A DNA stretch of 7,691 bases, from positions 1 to 7,691 of the forward strand of contig CALGZD010000150.1 in the NCBI GenBank assembly GCA_937934635.1, written 5' to 3'. Source of the DNA: an uncultured Deinococcales bacterium (GTDB taxonomy: Bacteria; Deinococcota; Deinococci; Deinococcales; Trueperaceae). Positions 1 to 7,691 of the stretch are shown here, in pieces. Numbering within the stretch: the first letter of the stretch is position 1; each line of letters opens with the position of its first letter. The position numbers and the translations under genes are program-made. The notes below the pieces were generated by a model. It ran no database searches. It was not told where the DNA came from and saw only the letters and a list, made by a program, of their open reading frames with translations.

Positions 1-842
1 CTTTAGACAATATCGACCTAGATGGTGCCAATCCTGTTATTGATTTAACTGGTCGTGATGAACTTCAATCAAAGCTTGTTAGTGTTGGCATAAGCTATAA
101 AGTTTTGCTAAGTAAAATTGGCAGTTACGATACTAATGGGGCTTTACTTCAAGCTTACCTAGCTCCTGCCAATACTAGCTCTATTACCGATTCAGCTAAT
201 ACACTTGGCGCACCTATAGCCGTTAATTTTATAAATGATAGTCAAACGATAGATACGACTTTTAATTTAAAAGCTGAGCAAGTGCAAGCACTCAATAATA
301 GAAAATTGCGCTTAGGCTTCTCTCTTAAAGGAACTATCAATGCTCTCAATTCTGAAACAGTTGGGCTTAGCTATGATGTTCAAAGTTTGAAAATCACAAA
401 TCTCAAAGTAGCTGTTAATGAACATTTCCCAAATGCTGATAATGGGGAAGTTCTCTCAATTGCAAATATAGACACAGGTGTTGCTAAAGTAAATAGCCTA
501 ACCTTAAACTATGCTGCAACACTCAAACAAAGTTCACCAGCTATCCTAAAAGGTACTGCAACCGTAGAACTTTATCTGGCAAGTTCTTCAGAAACAAATC
601 TTTATCAAGCTTCAAACCTTGCAAAATCAGTTGAAGTAGACATCACTGGCGATACACTAACTGGACAGCTCCGTGTGGAAAATCCATTGGTGGCAACAGT
701 CTTAGCCGATAATAATATTCGCTATGGATTAAAAATTACAGGTAATGCCATAGGCATCGAGGCAACTGCTAACAGCGGCAATGAAGTCACTTTCGAATAT
801 GAAATCACACAGTTAACTGGCACTGCAGGCGTCGGTTTGTAA
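1..842 (+). CDS. Unrecognised beta-rich protein with two-fold internal repeat (3' part only)
   Basis: The frame is open from base 3 to the left edge and ends at TAA 840-842, so the visible 279 residues are the C-terminal part of a longer protein. The TTG at 105 is an internal leucine codon, not a credible start: the frame continues upstream and no ribosome site is evident. The protein has alternating hydrophobic strands rich in T, S, N and L, no cysteine and no membrane segment in the visible part. Two stretches of about 110 residues resemble each other, one encoded near 81-410 and one near 495-830. Both contain a strand ending in a YLA motif, then a V-rich strand, then a LRLGFSLKG or IRYGLKITG strand, and both end in a Y-D/E-V/I strand. 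This suggests two tandem beta-sandwich modules, as in many exported or surface proteins, but I do not recognise a family. It is convergent with the ABC cluster and probably unrelated to it in function. Signal peptide and full length are out of view. Confidence 0.8.
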   Translation, partial: LDNIDLDGANPVIDLTGRDELQSKLVSVGISYKVLLSKIGSYDTNGALLQAYLAPANTSSITDSANTLGAPIAVNFINDSQTIDTTFNLKAEQVQALNNRKLRLGFSLKGTINALNSETVGLSYDVQSLKITNLKVAVNEHFPNADNGEVLSIANIDTGVAKVNSLTLNYAATLKQSSPAILKGTATVELYLASSSETNLYQASNLAKSVEVDITGDTLTGQLRVENPLVATVLADNNIRYGLKITGNAIGIEATANSGNEVTFEYEITQLTGTAGVGL

Positions 843-860
843 ACTACAGGTTTATATTCT

Positions 861-903
861 AAAATAAAAAGAGGTTGCCTTTTTCGGCAACCTCTAACTT
901 TTT
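861..903. terminator. Bidirectional rho-independent terminator
   Basis: A perfect 10-bp stem (870-879 with 886-895, containing GAGGTTGCC and GGCAACCTC) closes a 6-nt loop. On the minus strand it is followed immediately by a T-rich run (complement of the A-rich 861-869), an excellent terminator for the barrel gene and hence the ABC cluster. On the plus strand a T5 run at 899-903 follows after three bases, so it also serves the gene ending at 842. The position between convergent genes fits this double role. Confidence 0.92.
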
Positions 904-941
904 GTGGAGCTGAACAAGTTAAGTTTTTAAAAATTTACACT

Positions 942-2405
942 TTAAAAATTCACACCTAGCGACACACTCAAAGACATACTCTGATCTGCACCAAAAGGAC
1001 TATATTCTGTTCCAGTATCGCCGTAACCATAGCTATAAGAAAAACTTGGTGTAATATTATCTATACCCCTATAGCTCAGCCCTAGATTGATTCTGCCCGA
1101 AGCATCATTCAAATTACCAATCCAAAATATAGAAGGGGTAAGTTTACTCTTTAAGAAATCTGGTGAGCTTATGCTCAAAGCGCCATAGTGTTGACCACGG
1201 TTAAATAAATCTGCAACAGAAATTTGACCTTGTGCTAGCAATGCACCAATGGCTTGTTGATAATCTTTAGCGATGCTTATGTCAGCGTAACCTAAACCAT
1301 TAAAGTAGTATTGTCCAAAAGCAAAGATGGAAAAATCGCTTTCGTCATTGCTATAGTTATAGCTTGCACCAATGGTACTAGAAAAGTATAAATCATCAGA
1401 TGTACGTGCGCTCACACCAAGTAGTGAAGTATCGTCAAGAACAAGAAATTTCTTATTGACATTGCCTTCCAACACTGCTTCAGCAAAAACTGCAACATCA
1501 CCAATATTGGTTGATACTGTGCTCATAAGCGACCAAGGATTATCAAACTGATAGACACCGCCCACGGTGTACTCACTTCCACCAGCCAAAAATTCATAGC
1601 GAGAAGCCAGTGCAATCGGGTTGCCATTTTCAATATCATCTACTAGGGCATAACCAGTAAGGTTATTATTTCCAATTGGGTACTGTACTTTAGCAGCAAC
1701 TGGTCCTGCTAGTTCAGCATCTGGATTTTCTGGATCAATCGTTTCGATATTTATTAGATTAGCTGGACTAAAGAAACGTCCTACACCCCAGTTAATCGTT
1801 TGCTTACCAGCACGTATGAAAACTTGGTTATTGATATCAGTATCGATGAACATTTCACGCAAGTCATAGCTCAAGCCATCGTCAGTATCATAATCAATAT
1901 CGCCTTTGATAAAACCTCGTAAATCTGTACTTGGTCTGGCATCTAGGAATATGCGAGCGCCAAGATTATCAAGACCACTCTTGAAAGCATCTTCAGCATT
2001 CTCTGCATCAGGGTCGTAAGTAAGCTTTACAGAGCTACTGATTCGTCCACCAATGTCTACAGTTTCATTCGTTAGAAGCTCATCAGATGCAACAACGTCA
2101 GTTGCGCTAATTTCAGAAACTAGCCCACTACTTCCACCGAACAAATCATCTTCACTACCTGACGAATCACTTCCACCAAAGAGGGCATCCTCATCAGTTG
2201 AGCTACCATTATTATCACTACCACCAAAAAGTGCGTCTTCATCTACACTTGAATTATCCTCGCCTTCATCACTACTATCATCACTGGCACCAAATAGGCT
2301 GTCTTCAAGTGCGCTGTTATCGTCTTGAGCAAATGAAAAACTAGGTACTGCTAGAGCAGCAGTACCTAAAAGTAGGACGAGTAAAAAACTTTTATTAAGT
2401 TTCAT
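942..2405 (-). CDS. Outer-membrane beta-barrel protein, DUF1302-like, with repeat-bearing N-terminal tail
   Basis: 487 residues. A signal peptide covers about residues 1-26 (basic start, hydrophobic core, SFA|QD cleavage). Residues 27 to about 117 are acidic, rich in S, G, D and E and probably disordered, with four copies of an EDxLFG(G/A)S motif at 34-41, 56-63, 72-79 and 85-92. From about 118 to the end come alternating beta strands finishing in valine-asparagine-phenylalanine, the usual C-terminal signature of barrels inserted by BAM. The stretch at 182-219 (LREMFID, then RAGKQTINWGVGRFFSPAN) resembles DUF1302-type barrels, which accompany LolA-like proteins and lipid transporters; this assignment is from memory of the family and is moderate. 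The start ATG overlaps the stop of the upstream LolA-like gene by one base (TAATG) with no clear ribosome site of its own, so translation is probably by reinitiation. The likely role is outer-membrane partner of the ABC/LolA-like system, as acceptor or donor of a lipid or lipoprotein. Confidence 0.85.
   Translation of the reverse strand: MKLNKSFLLVLLLGTAALAVPSFSFAQDDNSALEDSLFGASDDSSDEGEDNSSVDEDALFGGSDNNGSSTDEDALFGGSDSSGSEDDLFGGSSGLVSEISATDVVASDELLTNETVDIGGRISSSVKLTYDPDAENAEDAFKSGLDNLGARIFLDARPSTDLRGFIKGDIDYDTDDGLSYDLREMFIDTDINNQVFIRAGKQTINWGVGRFFSPANLINIETIDPENPDAELAGPVAAKVQYPIGNNNLTGYALVDDIENGNPIALASRYEFLAGGSEYTVGGVYQFDNPWSLMSTVSTNIGDVAVFAEAVLEGNVNKKFLVLDDTSLLGVSARTSDDLYFSSTIGASYNYSNDESDFSIFAFGQYYFNGLGYADISIAKDYQQAIGALLAQGQISVADLFNRGQHYGALSISSPDFLKSKLTPSIFWIGNLNDASGRINLGLSYRGIDNITPSFSYSYGYGDTGTEYSPFGADQSMSLSVSLGVNF
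2130..2306 (-). repeat. Four EDxLFGGS motif repeats in the barrel's N-terminal tail
   Basis: Within the barrel gene, the motif reads EDSLFGAS, EDALFGGS, EDALFGGS and EDDLFGGS, separated by acidic serine/glycine linkers that shorten along the tail (start-to-start 22, 16 and 13 residues). The two identical EDALFGGS copies use different codons for D, A, L and one G, with no amino-acid change. The repeat is therefore conserved as peptide and is not a fresh DNA duplication. The same motif occurs in the neighbouring permease (5349-5417). Confidence 0.9.
2336..2368 (-). promoter_or_regulatory. Terminator-like hairpin inside the signal-peptide codons of the barrel gene
   Basis: A perfect 11-bp inverted repeat (2342-2352 with 2358-2368, arms TAGGTACTGCT and AGCAGTACCTA on the plus strand) has a 5-nt loop. 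In the direction of transcription (minus) the stem is followed after one G by T5 (complement of 2336-2340), then a mixed T-rich stretch. It lies about 37-64 nt into the coding sequence, at residues 13-22. The form is that of an intrinsic terminator or attenuator. Ribosomes translating the segment would disrupt it, so it may couple barrel transcription to translation. Function is inferred; the structure is seen. Confidence 0.4.
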
Positions 2406-3157
2406 TATCTGTTGACACGCTCAACATAGGCCTTGGTGAATACATTATCTGGAATGTCAGAAACTGATAAATCTGAAAAAGTGACTGTAGTTTTTGCACC
2501 TTCAACGAGTTCATCAATATAGATTGCTTTATCGGCAATGAAGTTATCGCCTGCTTTAGCATAGCTTGGGAAGTAAGAAGTTCTTAGCAAACGCTTAGTG
2601 AGACTGTACTCCTGAGCCTTTAGTACAAGGCTGTTATCTTTTGTGACAGATATTGTCATGAATGGGTAGGTAACCTCGTCATGAACTGCTTCTAATTCAA
2701 GTTCCCAAACATCAAATTTCCCAAGTGTACCTTCTGTACTAGACATTACCTTGTAATCTTCAGCAAGGCTCGAGGCCTCCCAATCAGAGTTCCTAGCATC
2801 ACTACCCTCAAAGCTCTCTGCCAAAGAGGTGAACTGAAACTGCCTACTTTCAGGGTCATAGAACCACAAACTTTCATCAACACGTAGATAGCCTTGACCA
2901 AGCTGTGTTTCAGGTTTTTGAATTAACAGCAAGAAAAGATCATCAGTGTCTCTACGGAACATCTGCACTTGAAGCGTTTCATCGCCATCCACGGGATCAC
3001 TGCTTTCAATGAGAAGGTTCATTGCCAAATCATCTGTAAAATTACTACGTTCATCAATGGTTTGAAGCATAGCTTGAAAATCTGGTTCTTGAGCCAGAGC
3101 GCTAAAACTTATTAGAACAGTAAAGGTTAAAAATATAGATATGAGTTTTTGTTTCAT
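2405..3157 (-). CDS. LolA-like periplasmic protein (outer membrane lipoprotein-sorting protein family)
   Basis: 250 residues with a signal peptide of about 22 residues (cleavage ALA|QE). There is no lipobox cysteine, so the product should be soluble in the periplasm. The mature part fits the LolA-like family often annotated as outer membrane lipoprotein-sorting protein (PF17131): GQGYLR at 87-92, LWFYDP at 97-102, then GSDARNSDW at 118-126 followed by LAEDY, an order typical of this family, with beta strands throughout. Members form an open half-barrel that shields lipid or lipoprotein acyl chains. The start ATG has a good ribosome site, AAGGAG at 3171-3166 with 8 nt spacing. Its stop overlaps the barrel start (TAATG). 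Placed between the permeases and the barrel, it is probably the carrier between the two membranes. It is not necessarily the housekeeping LolA, which usually sits apart from such a barrel gene. Confidence 0.87.
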   Translation of the reverse strand: MKQKLISIFLTFTVLISFSALAQEPDFQAMLQTIDERSNFTDDLAMNLLIESSDPVDGDETLQVQMFRRDTDDLFLLLIQKPETQLGQGYLRVDESLWFYDPESRQFQFTSLAESFEGSDARNSDWEASSLAEDYKVMSSTEGTLGKFDVWELELEAVHDEVTYPFMTISVTKDNSLVLKAQEYSLTKRLLRTSYFPSYAKAGDNFIADKAIYIDELVEGAKTTVTFSDLSVSDIPDNVFTKAYVERVNR

Positions 3158-3199
3158 AAAAAGTACTCCTTATAGCTTAGTTATACGAGAAAATTCGTG

Positions 3200-3347
3200 A
3201 GCTGACTGAGGGGTGGATTGCGATTCTGAGTAGTGAGTTCTAATAATTCTCAAAGATGAATCTAGCTCCCCTTTAGAAAAGAGGAGGACTAAAAACATAT
3301 TTGTAAAGAATCAAAGCTTCCCCCTTTTTCCAAGCTGAGGGGGATTC
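3200..3347. repeat. Palindromic, REP-like intergenic repeats between permease and LolA-like gene
   Basis: The 195-bp spacer holds two versions of each of two motifs. On the minus strand, one is AATCC(A)CCCCTCAG followed by AGCT or CAGCT (3347-3330 and 3219-3200). The other is AAA(G)GGGGA(A)GCT followed closely by GATTC (3329-3308 and 3276-3258). The first pair forms a hairpin with a 7-bp stem (3319-3325 with 3338-3344) and GAATC/GATTC ends; the second pair is similar but looser. No good T-run follows, so these look like dispersed palindromic elements or mRNA processing and stability signals, not a clean terminator. No convincing promoter was found ahead of the LolA-like gene. Confidence 0.5.
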
Positions 3348-3352
3348 CGCTT

Positions 3353-4660
3353 TTAAGACCTTAATGCTTCCGCAGGCTCTAAATTCGCAGCAGCCCTTGC
3401 AGGGACCAATACAGCTAACACACTCATGATGCAAAGCAAAAGTATGTTGACTGAAATCCTCGGAATTGAGTTAGAGAAAAACAGTTTGCCTTTATTTAAG
3501 AAAAAGGTCCAGTCTTCATACTGATTAAGATCAATCGTACCGAGTCCAAACATAACCAGAAGAGCAAGAACTAAACCAATGACTGCACCAACAAGCGCTA
3601 CAAAAAGTGCTTCCCAAATAAAAATGTTGCGAATCGCTGCTTTTTGCACACCCATAGCACGCATGGTGCCGATTTCCTTTGTACGTTCTAACATAACCAT
3701 ACGGTAAGAATTCATCAATCCAACCATGATGATTATCAATATGATTACAAAGATTCCGAGTGCAATTTGATCTGCAGCACTGAGTGCATTATTCAGGAAT
3801 GAAAGTATGTCGTCTACGTTTTGAACGTCGTACTTCGTACCTTCCCAACGATCTTCTTCATCTATAGTGTTAGATGGCGGTGGTCCAAAAATACCACCTT
3901 CATCTTCACCTTCTTTTGGAACAACTGTACCAAGCTTTGCAAGTTCGGCGTACAGCGTGTCAGTGACTTCACCAACTTTTTTAACATCTTTAAGGTAAAT
4001 ATTATAACTCTGGAATTCACCTGCATTCATGTCTAGTAAGGTATTGAGTTTATCGATGTGTGTGTAGGCAGAGGCTAAAAATGCCAAATTGCTTTTAACA
4101 CTTCCAGCAATAACTAAGTCATCTACATTAACCTGACCGTTAATTGTCTCTGCCCTGACAATAATTGTTTCGCCTACTTCTACACCCAATTCTTCTACAG
4201 TATCTTCAGGCAAGATGACTGCATTTGGATTACTGGCAAATATTTCAGCACCACCTTCTACAAACTGAAGGCTCGTTAGGAAAGCTGTTTCAATATCAAC
4301 ATCTACACCTGTAAGTAAGACATCTTCCTGATTACGATTTCCAATAAGTAATGCATTCGCAAAGGTTCTGAAATTTGCCGATAAAACCTCACCTTCAATA
4401 CTTTTAACTGCTTCTTTAATCGTGTCACTATTGCGGATAACATCGATTTCGGTACTTCTATCGCTGACCTCCGTACCAGCAATATACATGTGCCCACCAA
4501 GAATACCTGAGAAGTTATCTCTAATATTTGTACTAAGACCACCTGTAAACCCATTAATCAAAGTGAGGATAAAAAAACCAAATGCAATAGCACTGCCTAG
4601 CAAAAGGCTTCGTCTAAAATTCCTCATGACATTTTTATAAGCGATTCGAAATGATTGCAT
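3353..4660 (-). CDS. ABC transporter permease, FtsX/LolC-LolE type (second permease)
   Basis: 435 residues with the four-helix layout of type VII ABC permeases (MacB, LolC/E, FtsX). A first membrane helix lies at about 19-40, a large periplasmic domain at about 41-296, and three C-terminal helices at about 297-318, 347-373 and 403-421. The FtsX-domain signatures are clear: ERTKEIGTMRAMG at 325-337 (cytoplasmic coupling region) and the C-terminal P-ARAAANLEPAEALR at 420-434. A short acidic segment with GGIFGPPPS at 255-263 is a possible degenerate relative of the LFGG motif in the neighbouring proteins. The ATG is preceded by GAGGAG (4670-4665) at a good distance, 10 nt after the stop of the first permease. 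It should pair with that permease and the ATPase to form a heterodimeric inner-membrane complex. LolCDE-like lipoprotein release is the nearest functional model, but substrate is unknown. Confidence 0.9.
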   Translation of the reverse strand: MQSFRIAYKNVMRNFRRSLLLGSAIAFGFFILTLINGFTGGLSTNIRDNFSGILGGHMYIAGTEVSDRSTEIDVIRNSDTIKEAVKSIEGEVLSANFRTFANALLIGNRNQEDVLLTGVDVDIETAFLTSLQFVEGGAEIFASNPNAVILPEDTVEELGVEVGETIIVRAETINGQVNVDDLVIAGSVKSNLAFLASAYTHIDKLNTLLDMNAGEFQSYNIYLKDVKKVGEVTDTLYAELAKLGTVVPKEGEDEGGIFGPPPSNTIDEEDRWEGTKYDVQNVDDILSFLNNALSAADQIALGIFVIILIIIMVGLMNSYRMVMLERTKEIGTMRAMGVQKAAIRNIFIWEALFVALVGAVIGLVLALLVMFGLGTIDLNQYEDWTFFLNKGKLFFSNSIPRISVNILLLCIMSVLAVLVPARAAANLEPAEALRS

Positions 4661-4670
4661 AATTCTCCTC

Positions 4671-6152
4671 TTAATTTCCTTGCATCGCTTTTACTGGCGA
4701 GATGCCAAGTGCAACCGAAACAGGGTATAAACTAGCAACCAAACCAATAATAATCATGACAGCAAATGAAATGACTATAGATATAGACGATAATGTAGGT
4801 TTTAGAACTGGACCACCAAAGAAAATCTCAAGAAAATCGTTAGGTGCTGTGATACCAAGATTGTTAAATAAAGCAACAATAGCAACACCTACCAAAATAC
4901 CAATGATGCCAAAAACTATAGTTATCATAAGAACTTCAAGGGTAATCATAGAGCGAACAAAACCACGTTGACCACCGATTGCCCTTACAGTGCCAATTTC
5001 ACCAAATCGTTCGGTGACTGAAATGACCAAAGTATTCATGATGATGATAATAGCGACTAGCGCTACAACTGCAATAAGAATGTTTAGAATAATTGCAAAA
5101 GCACTAGCAAGACCTGCGAAGAAACCTGCACCAAATTTCCAGTTTTCCACGACCGCATTTTCTGCAATAAGTGGTGTTGATGCTTCGAACTCTTTTTTGA
5201 CTCTGTTAGTGGAAAAGCCGTCTTTAAGCTTTACGAGCATAAAGTGCCAAGCGTTGTTGTCTAAGGCTAAAAATTGTTCTCTGACCGAGACATCACCTAA
5301 GATGTTATCGAAGTCTAGGCTCGAGCCCCCCTCAGCATCTGCCACCAAATCTCCCCCGAAGAGATCATCCTCAAGACCAGCTTCTAAACTACTGGACTCT
5401 CCAAATAATGAATCTTCAGAAATATCTTCTTCTGGCGCTTCTTCAACAACTTCGGTGTCCGAAGCTTTAAATGCAGTTAAACCATTCAAAGAACGAAGTG
5501 TACTAGCATCTACAAAAGAAATTCTTTCAAGCGCACCAGCAGTATTTTTATATTCACCAATACCAATAATCGGTACTTCACGAATTTTTGCACCCGTAAT
5601 ATCATTCACACTTGCTAGCTGAATAACATCACCAATTTTAAGTTCAATATCTTCTTCTTTCAAAACATCATCAATCACAGCTTTAGAAATAACAATGCCA
5701 CGTTCACCTTCTTGAAGGTCTTCACCTTCAAGTAAAGTAAAGCTATCTGCAAACATTGCACGATATTCATCTGTTTTGACTGACCAAAACAAAGAAAACG
5801 AAAGGATTTCATCATTTTGGCTGATTGTACCCGCACCAGTGAGCATTGGTGTATATATCTCAACTGCTTCATGTTCTGCAAGTTGGGCTTCTATTTCTTC
5901 AATATTTTCAAGCGCAGGTATTCGCCCTCCAAAACCACCAATAAAAACAACAGAGTCATCACTAGTGTTACGAAAAATGATGTCACTAGTGAAGTTATCA
6001 GTATAGGTTTGTTCCATACCTCTGGTAACAGTTTGAATAACAGAGTTACCAACGACCAAGAATGCAATGCCTAAAGCAATCAAACTGCCAATAATTAGCG
6101 TTTTGATTTTATGCTCACGTAGATTGCGAAAGGCAATCTTAAGGAGAATCAT
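4671..6152 (-). CDS. ABC transporter permease, MacB/FtsX type, with acidic LFGG-motif insertion (first permease)
   Basis: 493 residues, longer than its partner. A first membrane helix lies at about 17-38, a periplasmic MacB-PCD-like domain at about 39-345, and FtsX-domain helices at about 347-373, 401-428 and 455-478. Family signatures include the N-terminal KIAFRNLREHK (5-15), ERFGEIGTVRAIGG (381-394) and the C-terminal YPVSVALGISPVKAMQG (476-492). Part of the extra length is an acidic, low-complexity insertion at about 231-287 in the periplasmic domain, which carries EDSLFGES (246-253) and EDDLFGGD (261-268), matching the repeats of the outer-membrane barrel. The start ATG overlaps the ATPase stop by four bases (ATGA), and AGGAG at 6164-6160 lies 7 nt upstream, so the two are translationally coupled. 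Predicted partner of the second permease in a LolCDE/MacB-like complex that moves a lipid or lipoprotein out of the inner membrane by mechanotransmission. Confidence 0.9.
   Translation of the reverse strand: MILLKIAFRNLREHKIKTLIIGSLIALGIAFLVVGNSVIQTVTRGMEQTYTDNFTSDIIFRNTSDDSVVFIGGFGGRIPALENIEEIEAQLAEHEAVEIYTPMLTGAGTISQNDEILSFSLFWSVKTDEYRAMFADSFTLLEGEDLQEGERGIVISKAVIDDVLKEEDIELKIGDVIQLASVNDITGAKIREVPIIGIGEYKNTAGALERISFVDASTLRSLNGLTAFKASDTEVVEEAPEEDISEDSLFGESSSLEAGLEDDLFGGDLVADAEGGSSLDFDNILGDVSVREQFLALDNNAWHFMLVKLKDGFSTNRVKKEFEASTPLIAENAVVENWKFGAGFFAGLASAFAIILNILIAVVALVAIIIIMNTLVISVTERFGEIGTVRAIGGQRGFVRSMITLEVLMITIVFGIIGILVGVAIVALFNNLGITAPNDFLEIFFGGPVLKPTLSSISIVISFAVMIIIGLVASLYPVSVALGISPVKAMQGN
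5349..5417 (-). repeat. Two EDxLFGG motifs in the periplasmic insertion of the first permease
   Basis: EDSLFGES and EDDLFGGD lie 15 residues apart inside the acidic insertion and match copies one and four of the barrel-tail repeats. Codons for the shared residues differ between the two genes (for example S is TCA here and AGC there, and L is TTA or CTC here and CTA or TTG there). Recent copying of DNA is therefore unlikely. A weaker echo, LDFDNILGD at 279-287, follows. Confidence 0.88.
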
Positions 6153-6901
6153 GCGCCAGCTCCTACCGTTTCTTGTTGAACATGACCAACTGATGCACCA
6201 CCTGAGTTAGTATCTACATTAAAGTCATCGATAACGACACCATCTTGCAGTTTGATAACATGGTCGGCAATTTTTACTACATCAGGATCGTGCGTACTAA
6301 AGATAAAGGTAGTCTCTAGTTCACGGTTCATCTGGCGCATAAGGTCCATGATTGCTTCACTGGTTGAAGAATCAAGGTTTGCTGTTGGCTCATCTGCCAT
6401 GACAATGCTTGGTTTGGTTACCAATGCTCTTGCAATAGCCACACGCTGACGCTGACCACCAGAAAGCTCATTTGATTTGTGAGTACGTCTATCGCCTAAG
6501 CCGACTGCATCAATCAGATAGTCAATCCACTCTGCTTGTTCTTTTTTACCCCGACTACGTTTACCGAGCAATACAGGAAATTCAACATTTTCGTAGACAT
6601 TTAGTACAGGGATAAGGTTAAAAGACTGGAAAATGAAACCAAGTGATTTGTGTCTAAGCCTAGTAAGAGCTTTATCTTTTAAACCACCTGTTTCCACACC
6701 ATCAATAACGACACTACCACCAGACGGTGTATCGATACAGCCAATTAGGTTGAGAATAGTTGACTTACCTGAACCTGATGGACCCGTGATAGATGCAAAT
6801 TCACCCTTATGGATTTCAAAATTCACACCTTTAAGTGCATGAACCTCAGTCTTTCCAAGCGGATAAACCTTTGTTACGTCTTTCAGTTCGACTATTGCCA
6901 C
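6149..6901 (-). CDS. ABC transporter ATP-binding protein, LolD/MacB type
   Basis: 250 residues with all nucleotide-binding motifs intact: Walker A GPSGSGKST (40-48), Q-loop Q92 in GFIFQSFNLIP, signature LSGGQ (146-150), Walker B IVMADE (166-171) with catalytic E171, D-loop NLD (175-177) and switch H204. The pattern SFNLIPVLNVYENVEFP is typical of the LolD/MacB/FtsE group. A tail of about 20 hydrophilic residues extends beyond the usual end near 230. The start is GTG at 6901, supported by GGAGG (6914-6910) with 8 nt spacing and by the family-typical N-terminus MAIVELKDVTKVYPLG. It is the first gene of the minus-strand cluster, and its stop overlaps the next ATG (ATGA). It should act as a cytoplasmic dimer powering the two permeases. 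LolD itself is one possibility, but the neighbouring barrel and LolA-like gene suggest a dedicated paralogous system, so no symbol is given. Confidence 0.94.
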   Translation of the reverse strand: MAIVELKDVTKVYPLGKTEVHALKGVNFEIHKGEFASITGPSGSGKSTILNLIGCIDTPSGGSVVIDGVETGGLKDKALTRLRHKSLGFIFQSFNLIPVLNVYENVEFPVLLGKRSRGKKEQAEWIDYLIDAVGLGDRRTHKSNELSGGQRQRVAIARALVTKPSIVMADEPTANLDSSTSEAIMDLMRQMNRELETTFIFSTHDPDVVKIADHVIKLQDGVVIDDFNVDTNSGGASVGHVQQETVGAGA

Positions 6902-6933
6902 GAATGTAACCTCCGTATTACCGATTTTGCTCT

Positions 6934-6963
6934 CTTATACCGTGTCCGAAACTATTATGTAAT
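6934..6963 (-). promoter_or_regulatory. Candidate sigma-70 promoter for the ABC cluster
   Basis: On the minus strand a TATAAG hexamer (6939-6934, 5 of 6 to consensus) lies 18 bp downstream of ATTACA (6963-6958, 4 of 6). Transcription would start near 6927, giving a leader of about 26 nt that contains the GGAGG ribosome site. The 14-bp repeat arrays begin about 35 bp upstream of the -35 box, a plausible place for activator or repressor binding. AT-rich surroundings make chance matches possible. Confidence 0.4.
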
Positions 6964-6997
6964 AAACAAATGAGTTAGGGCTATCATTTGCTCAACC

Positions 6998-7053
6998 ATA
7001 GTCTGTACCTAATAGTCTGTACCTAATAATCTATATCTAATAATCTGTGAGTT
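6998..7053. repeat. 14-bp tandem repeat array, four units
   Basis: Two identical units ATAGTCTGTACCTA (6998-7011 and 7012-7025) are followed by two degenerate ones (7026-7039 ATAATCTATATCTA, and 7040-7053, which keeps only ATAATCTGT). The array lies just upstream of the candidate promoter of the ABC cluster. It could be a set of protein-binding sites or the product of replication slippage. Confidence 0.8.
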
Positions 7054-7078
7054 ACCTAGATATCTCCATAAAAATGAC

Positions 7079-7106
7079 ATCAGACTAAACTAATCAGACT
7101 AAACTA
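7079..7106. repeat. Second 14-bp tandem repeat, two perfect units
   Basis: ATCAGACTAAACTA occurs twice head to tail (7079-7092 and 7093-7106), with the same 14-bp period as the array at 6998-7053. The unit shares the core CAGACTA with the reverse complement of that array (its units joined read TACAGACTATTAGG), so the two arrays are inverted relative to each other. Confidence 0.8.
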
Positions 7107-7272
7107 GGGATATAAACGGAATTGGTATTACTTTACATCAAAGCACCTTAACAAAATGCCTTACCCTTGCTATTTAATAACAGTTTTAGCAACTTTACTT
7201 CACTCTTTAGAATGAGAGTCCGATTCGTTACTTTAAGTTTAGTATGTGGTGCTTGCTTGGATTGTAGGCTTT

Positions 7273-7287
7273 CCTAAGATTCTTAGG
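7273..7287. repeat. Short palindrome downstream of the TipAS-domain gene
   Basis: CCTAAGA and TCTTAGG flank a single T, a near-perfect 15-bp palindrome 33 bp past the stop of the regulator gene. On the plus strand it is followed by a T-rich stretch, but no plus-strand gene precedes it. On the minus strand no T-run follows, so it is a poor terminator for the regulator. It could be an operator or a weak hairpin. Confidence 0.35.
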
Positions 7288-7319
7288 CTTCTTTTTACTG
7301 AACAGCTCAACTATGTTTT

Positions 7320-7691
7320 CTACAACTCATCAACATAGTGCTCAATCGCCTTCTCAAAAAACTCAGGCAAATCCACATGAAACTTTTCGTAAAAAGCTCG
7401 AAATCTTGAGTCTTCTGTATACAACTTTCCCAAGCCCCTAAGCACATCATGACTTGGTTCATAAAAATATCTTAAATTCTGATGCCAACGTGCAACCAGC
7501 GCTTGCACTGCTGCGCTACTTGGTGATTCATCTAAATGCTCTGCTAGCTTAGTGTAGATTTCATCTGCCTCAGCCAAAATCTGCTTTTGCTTATTTTTAG
7601 AGTATTCTTTCCACTTTCGGTTTGACTCAGCAACCGTTTCTTCACCCCATTTTTCAATAGCTTCTTCTTCGTAGGCTGCTTGGGTAGCTTC
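7320..7691 (-). CDS. TipAS-domain protein, probably MerR-family transcriptional regulator (3' part only)
   Basis: The minus-strand frame is open from the right edge (7691) to TAG at 7322-7320, giving 123 visible residues; the codon at 7577 is internal. The sequence matches the TipAS effector-binding domain (PF07739). YEEEAIEKWG near the visible start is followed by the WKEYSK segment and AEADEIYTKLAEHL, then SPSSAAVQALVARWHQNL, with the C-terminal helices LGKLYTEDSRFRAFYEKFH and FFEKAIEHYV. In TipA-like proteins this alpha-helical domain binds ligands, such as thiopeptide antibiotics in Streptomyces, and controls an N-terminal MerR DNA-binding domain, which here would lie beyond the window. 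A stand-alone TipAS protein is also possible. It runs in the same direction as the ABC cluster but is 418 bp away, so it is likely a separate unit; regulation of the cluster is possible but unsupported. Confidence 0.85.
   Translation of the reverse strand, partial: EATQAAYEEEAIEKWGEETVAESNRKWKEYSKNKQKQILAEADEIYTKLAEHLDESPSSAAVQALVARWHQNLRYFYEPSHDVLRGLGKLYTEDSRFRAFYEKFHVDLPEFFEKAIEHYVDEL

Follow-up and report, generated by a model that had tools for sequence, protein, structure and literature searches.

A peptide motif shared by a permease and the outer-membrane barrel of a Lol-like export cluster as a putative docking tag

The gene cluster and its six motif copies

The window analyzed here, a stretch of 7,691 nucleotides from an uncultured Deinococcales bacterium (GenBank assembly GCA_937934635.1, contig CALGZD010000150.1, positions 1 to 7,691), carries five genes on its minus strand. 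Judged from their sequences, these genes are best explained as a Lol-like export line in which a type VII ATP-binding cassette (ABC) transporter (an ATPase with two permeases, A and B) is combined with a LolA-like carrier and an outer-membrane barrel. A short acidic peptide of the form EDxLFG, referred to as the tag, is shared by permease A and the barrel and is the subject of this work. The ATPase (6149 to 6901) gives profile matches of the LolD/MacB-like type. Permease A (4671 to 6152) has a LolC/LolE-type fold and bears the tag in a periplasmic loop at about residues 228 to 285. The barrel (942 to 2405), recognized from its open reading frame (ORF), its match to PF06980, and its homologues, is DUF1302-like and opens with a signal peptide and a disordered acidic N-terminal tail.

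A scan of all six frames of the window for [ED][ED]xLFG retrieved exactly six in-frame matches and no others. Four of these lie in the barrel tail (2130 to 2306, minus strand), at residues 34 (2283 to 2306), 56 (2217 to 2240), 72 (2169 to 2192), and 85 (2130 to 2153). The other two, also on the minus strand, lie in the loop of permease A, namely, EDSLFGES at residue 246 (5394 to 5417) and EDDLFGGD at residue 261 (5349 to 5372), within a segment that is predicted to be disordered. An earlier note on this DNA had placed six copies in these two proteins and had claimed that their codon usage differs; the positions are correct and in frame, and the all-frame check of the window shows that the codons vary among the six copies. 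The note had also considered selection on the peptide likely, the two proteins being otherwise unrelated and located in opposite membranes; a motif conserved at the peptide level is borne out by the conservation of loop and tail described below. The observation is thus right and is stronger than first stated.

Permease B (3353 to 4660) contains MacB_PCD and FtsX domains, and its variable loop (approximately 3838 to 3921) corresponds in position to the tagged loop of permease A; by a confounded co-variation, this loop is a candidate for involvement in reading the tag. The LolA-like periplasmic carrier (2405 to 3157) bears no tag. It matches PF17131 with an E value of 2.1e-35 and passes with 122.5 bits against a gathering score of 30, and its nearest solved relative is 3buu. 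The barrel fails at 22.9 bits, just below the gathering score of PF06980 (23.2), a label that several of its homologues carry. The ATPase likewise remains below the cut-off of the LolD model TIGR02211 (236.1 versus 307.75 bits), as do permease A (54.1 bits) and permease B (90.6 bits) with the LolC/E family model TIGR02212 (cut-off, 362.45 bits). The LolC/LolE/LolF permease fold was found.

Conservation and confinement of the motif

The main genome set was found via two transmembrane patterns of permease A, and not via the motif, and comprises the best 80 of 536 confirmed stretches. Its records belong to Trueperaceae, Spirochaetota, and Bacillota, together with one labelled Smithella (L013), the loop and tail of which are identical to those of Rectinema L014. 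These 80 loci and the window share the order ATPase, permease A, permease B, LolA, and barrel wherever the contig is long enough, with exceptions that include L001 and L054, in which the barrel does not adjoin LolA. Across this set and the window, the strict motif (EDxLFG type) occurs in 29 of 82 permease A ORFs and in 25 of 63 barrel ORFs, and it is present in none of the ORFs of permease B (78), LolA (71), or the ATPase (84). Among the other open stretches of at least 80 amino acids, 2 of 3032 contain it. Within the cluster, the strict motif is thus seen in permease A and the barrel alone, and it is cluster-specific, which bears on the enrichment test that the earlier note had put forward.

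Composition-preserving shuffles (n = 500) of the loops and tails served as a control; these comparisons are not probabilities, because related sequences are not independent. The strict motif is present in 29 of the 82 permease A loops (shuffle mean, 0.1; maximum, 3) and in 20 of 52 delimited barrel tails (mean, 0.1; maximum, 2), the tail counts omitting 11 of the 63 barrel ORFs for which automatic delimitation was impossible. A shorter core, [DE].{1,2}[LIM]F, is found in 77 of the 82 loops (mean, 17.4; maximum, 30) and in 48 of the 52 tails (mean, 11.8; maximum, 24), showing that orthologous permeases and barrels do not lack the motif, an absence that would have spoken against the earlier proposal. 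The motif starts at most 25 residues from the estimated end of the signal peptide in 46 of the 48 tails that match. Conservation of at least 90% is seen for L249 and F250 among 44 permease A sequences, within a loop that is variable elsewhere; in the 23 barrels compared, F38 never changes, and L37 and G39 likewise reach at least 90%. A short conserved core inside a variable, disordered segment, the arrangement typical of short linear docking motifs, is thus present here.

Homologue lists of the individual proteins, obtained by word searches that could favor motif words, follow the same distribution. At least one strict copy lies within the first 130 residues in 94 of the best 120 of 224 barrel homologues, and a strict copy is present in 82 of the best 120 of 593 permease A homologues and in none of the best 120 of 919 LolA-like homologues. 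A second set came from 198 evenly drawn Spirochaetota genomes, 34 of which have permease A at an E value of 1e-60 or better; 35 regions were retrieved and 30 loop-tail pairs were kept, several of the genomes being near relatives. Counted pair by pair, with F or V also allowed before the F, the core is present in both loop and tail in 55 of 60 pairs of the first set and in 28 of 30 pairs of the second. It is restricted to the loop in L018, L052, L080, and L229 (the tail of the last, from the second set, reads EEDIY) and to the tail in L062 and L075. In L080, the tail consists of repeated DPFAAA-like units without the core, and the loop has several xIFA/LFA units. L232 is the sole second-set pair without an LF core, which is absent from loop and tail alike and may represent a joint loss.

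The bare string is not rare. Its DNA pattern was counted 68 times across 13 genomes, compared with 46 times for the backward-read pattern, so genome-wide rarity was rejected as an argument and only position and pairing are special. Of 30 occurrences that were opened, 4 are the cluster's own permease A or barrel, and the other 26 lie, by eye, in unrelated or antisense frames without an acidic, flexible setting. Occurrence elsewhere is thus near background, which bears on the refuting condition of the earlier note that the motif be common in unrelated cytoplasmic proteins of the same genome.

The genomes designated G001 to G013 contain 50 LolA_like (PF17131) matches, 1 to 9 each, beside exporters of the resistance-nodulation-division (RND) or ABC type, and these are a wide set of parallel carrier systems. 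In the 40 regions opened around these matches, five untagged ABC-type loci, paralogous systems of these same genomes, have a barrel-like gene by LolA (L153, L155, L158, L159, and L162); the core is found in none of their permeases and not in the first 110 barrel residues, the core matches in three of the barrel ORFs lying further downstream. In four RND-type LolA-like systems (L147, L148, L151, and L156), the barrel opens with GFxxIF[DG] directly after the signal peptide. These were considered as a second case of a shared tag and rejected, the RND proteins being without GFxxIF.

Pairing of loop and tail within a system

The similarity of loop and tail was measured in 90 pairs, which are the 92 paired loci minus L079 (lacking a start), L244 (with a late tail), and L014 (identical in sequence to L013), plus L233 added by hand; the tails of L228, L233, and L234 were positioned by hand. 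Own pairs have a mean similarity of 45.4, whereas re-paired loci have a mean of 36.8 (maximum of 5000 re-pairings, 40.5). When re-pairing is confined to clusters of related permeases at thresholds of 0.3 to 0.5, none of 3000 re-pairings reaches the own-pair value. Masking the core leaves own pairs with a score of 26.4, versus 23.1 for re-paired loci (maximum of 3000, 24.9) and 23.6 for shuffles, and therefore the flanking residues match as well. The clearest matching case is L233, with FDDLFDDVSDYDEALIQTDSSE in the loop and FDSIFDDAEDVEEAIVTEDSE in the tail. Co-variation of the residue before the F (L, I, or M), hinted at by L236, L243, and L235, was discarded, as no clear trend appears over 83 pairs.

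This matching is also seen within single genomes that have more than one system (G005, G006, G195, and G210, each with two or three); the three of G006 are L014 (Rectinema subterraneum), L176, and L177. For 8 of 9 loops, no other tail matches as well as the own one, and mean similarity is 55.4 for own pairs and 35.3 for cross pairs. Loop and tail hence co-vary system by system, as a shared docking motif predicts. The same 8 of 9 loops count against reading by a general periplasmic factor from outside the cluster, because such a factor would not require that systems within one genome have different, pairwise matched tags; this alternative is highly improbable.

The DNA words shared by loop and tail are short (median, 8.5 bases; maximum, 18 bases; 94 loci), which makes recent copying unlikely. 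The barrel gene of G012 is separated from the cluster by about 24 kilobases, and its LF tag is followed by acidic residues (LFEEE) that resemble the LFDDS of the permease.

Candidate readers of the tag

Evolutionary considerations give good support to a shared, co-evolving docking tag, and we infer that this tag docks a reader. EDxLFG on permease A and in the barrel tail probably acts as one linear docking tag with a common reader in the same system, and such a reader would keep the two tags alike. The docking motif claimed in the earlier note accordingly stands as regards its conservation, its disorder (for the permease segment), its specificity for the cluster, and its co-variation, whereas LolA as the partner gained no support. 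The LolA-like carrier is still the most economical reader candidate. It is ranked first on two grounds: only a shuttle is obliged to reach both ends, and in the Lol system LolA is known to be recruited by an element of a permease, according to excerpts of one study (PMC10865981); nevertheless, that it is the reader we propose with slightly less than even confidence. The LolA-like proteins of tagged systems (n = 67) keep R68, D70, K242, E246, and R247, which are mostly missing in 24 paralogues of other systems; at R192 the change is mild, the paralogues having mostly K. The kept residues would fit an acidic ligand, although they may serve the cargo instead.

Several results weigh against a shared tag read by LolA. 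An AlphaFold2 model of LolA tethered to the tail (L011, one construct without a control), in which the tether is the natural read-through of LolA into the barrel tail, left the tag unordered: its first and second copies have a predicted local distance difference test (pLDDT) score below 50, as does the third except at one residue, and a single long helix formed in the linker. This single, uncontrolled model thus gave no confident docking of the kind that the earlier note had asked for in a cluster component. Divergence of the tag is scarcely correlated with that of LolA (partial correlations, 0.04 and 0.03; 59 of 300 permutations at least as high), with 0.11 and 0.11 in the first-set subset (10 of 300 at least as high), and it is correlated with that of the permease B loop (0.46 and 0.49; 0 of 300 permutations as high). 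The pairing itself is statistical only, since 29 of the 90 own pairs outscore every one of their 60 shuffles, and the own tail comes first for 7 of 90 loops, with a median rank of 20. Among close relatives the own-pair excess fades, being reached by 36 of 3000 re-pairings at threshold 0.6 and by 466 of 3000 at 0.7, which is expected if close relatives have one tag in common. The L178 loop fits a foreign tail better than its own, and in G001 two permease A genes are accompanied by a single barrel match, so that loop-tail pairing is not always one to one.

The share of 29 pairs in 90 would also suit the explanation that both segments are just acidic disordered linkers of like composition, with no docking role. 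Both are indeed acidic and low in order, and the bare string is near background genome-wide. Composition, however, gives at most 30 core matches in 82 loops and 24 in 52 tails, where 77 and 48 were observed, and a mean similarity of 33.0 with shuffled tails, against 45.4 for own pairs. Moreover, no long DNA is shared between loop and tail, and the match persists in G012 despite the unlinked barrel gene. A linker without docking function is for these reasons improbable.

The confounded correlation with the permease B loop points to the transporter itself as a possible reader. The periplasmic crown of the permeases, in permease B near its variable loop, would bind the loop of permease A in cis as a resting ligand; it would bind the barrel tail in trans, the tail bridging the envelope and joining barrel and transporter. 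In a scan of 68 windows over five proteins, this loop (residues 226 to 275) ranks top outside the tag windows, with correlations to the two tags of 0.52 and 0.55, and MacB relatives function in trans-envelope complexes, as judged by the titles of Protein Data Bank (PDB) entries. Fast-evolving windows, however, generally score high in the scan (e.g., barrel residues 101 to 150), and because of this, permease B was not accepted as a proven reader. In the first-set subset the partial correlation with this loop falls from 0.46 and 0.49 to 0.22 and 0.30, and 8 of 76 loops have a large insertion, though omitting these does not lower the value. A reading of the tag by the transporter itself is rated as unlikely. 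The large additional insertions occur in the spirochaetes L218, L220, L224, L232, L236, L237, L238, and L243. Among the 76 permease B variable loops, 18 contain [LIMF]FG, and those of spirochaetes are often rich in Met and Gly.

Comparison with known systems and significance

In LolCDE-LolA-LolB lipoprotein trafficking, LolA is recruited by the Hook and Pad of LolC, in the excerpted account of the study cited above (PMC10865981). The cluster resembles LolCDE-LolA in its LolC/LolE-type permease fold, its LolD-like ATPase, its LolA-like carrier, and a periplasmic permease element that is a candidate for carrier recruitment. It differs in the tagged disordered loop of permease A, in the barrel inside the cluster, in the lack of a LolB-like gene in the window, and in its permeases, which score far below the LolC/LolE model cut-offs. 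The genes flanking the cluster in the window are the 3' part of a gene encoding a TipAS domain (PF07739; 7320 to 7691) and a partial gene of 279 amino acids on the plus strand (3 to 842), for which Pfam and NCBIfam gave no match at an E value of 0.1. The Borrelia BBJ25-BBJ28 cluster has, unlike the present one, an Omp85-type barrel and a permease proposed to be a homodimer, and the excerpts of its description mention no motif (PMC13078400); a tblastn search of permease A against a plasmid collection for Borrelia relatives gave no match. AmeABCD, in the excerpts of its report, likewise combines a DUF1302-type barrel and a LolA-superfamily (DUF1329) periplasmic protein with an inner-membrane exporter, but this is of the RND and not the ABC type (PMC6394551), and the RND-type paralogues in the genomes studied here are without a shared tag. 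In contrast to MacAB-TolC efflux, as PDB titles indicate it, the genes of the window include no adaptor or TolC-type gene and have a LolA-like carrier instead. Among open-licence papers in PubMed Central, no published description of the system or of the motif was found.

If LolA is the reader, the cognate carrier would, with less certainty, be caught near the permease, where it would take up cargo, and the barrel tail, often with multiple copies of the tag, would catch it again for cargo release. Matched tags would stop parallel systems in one cell from mixing. The exporter and the barrel may in this way show a matched disordered peptide as a system-specific address code, with one reader for both ends and parallel lines insulated from each other, a proposal that we advance tentatively.

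According to passages of one review, LolB is restricted to gamma- and beta-Proteobacteria, and among diderm Terrabacteria the Lol pathway is apparently found only in the Halanaerobiaceae group, probably by horizontal gain (PMC11784454). The Deinococcota, Bacillota, and Spirochaetota records have in common a Lol-like cluster that includes a barrel of its own and in which both membrane parts bear matching tags. If true, the address code would let diderms without LolB specify where a Lol-like route ends at the outer membrane. If the tag docks the carrier, the finding of the right outer-membrane target would become testable with a ten-residue peptide, as would the avoidance of cross-talk among parallel systems in one cell.

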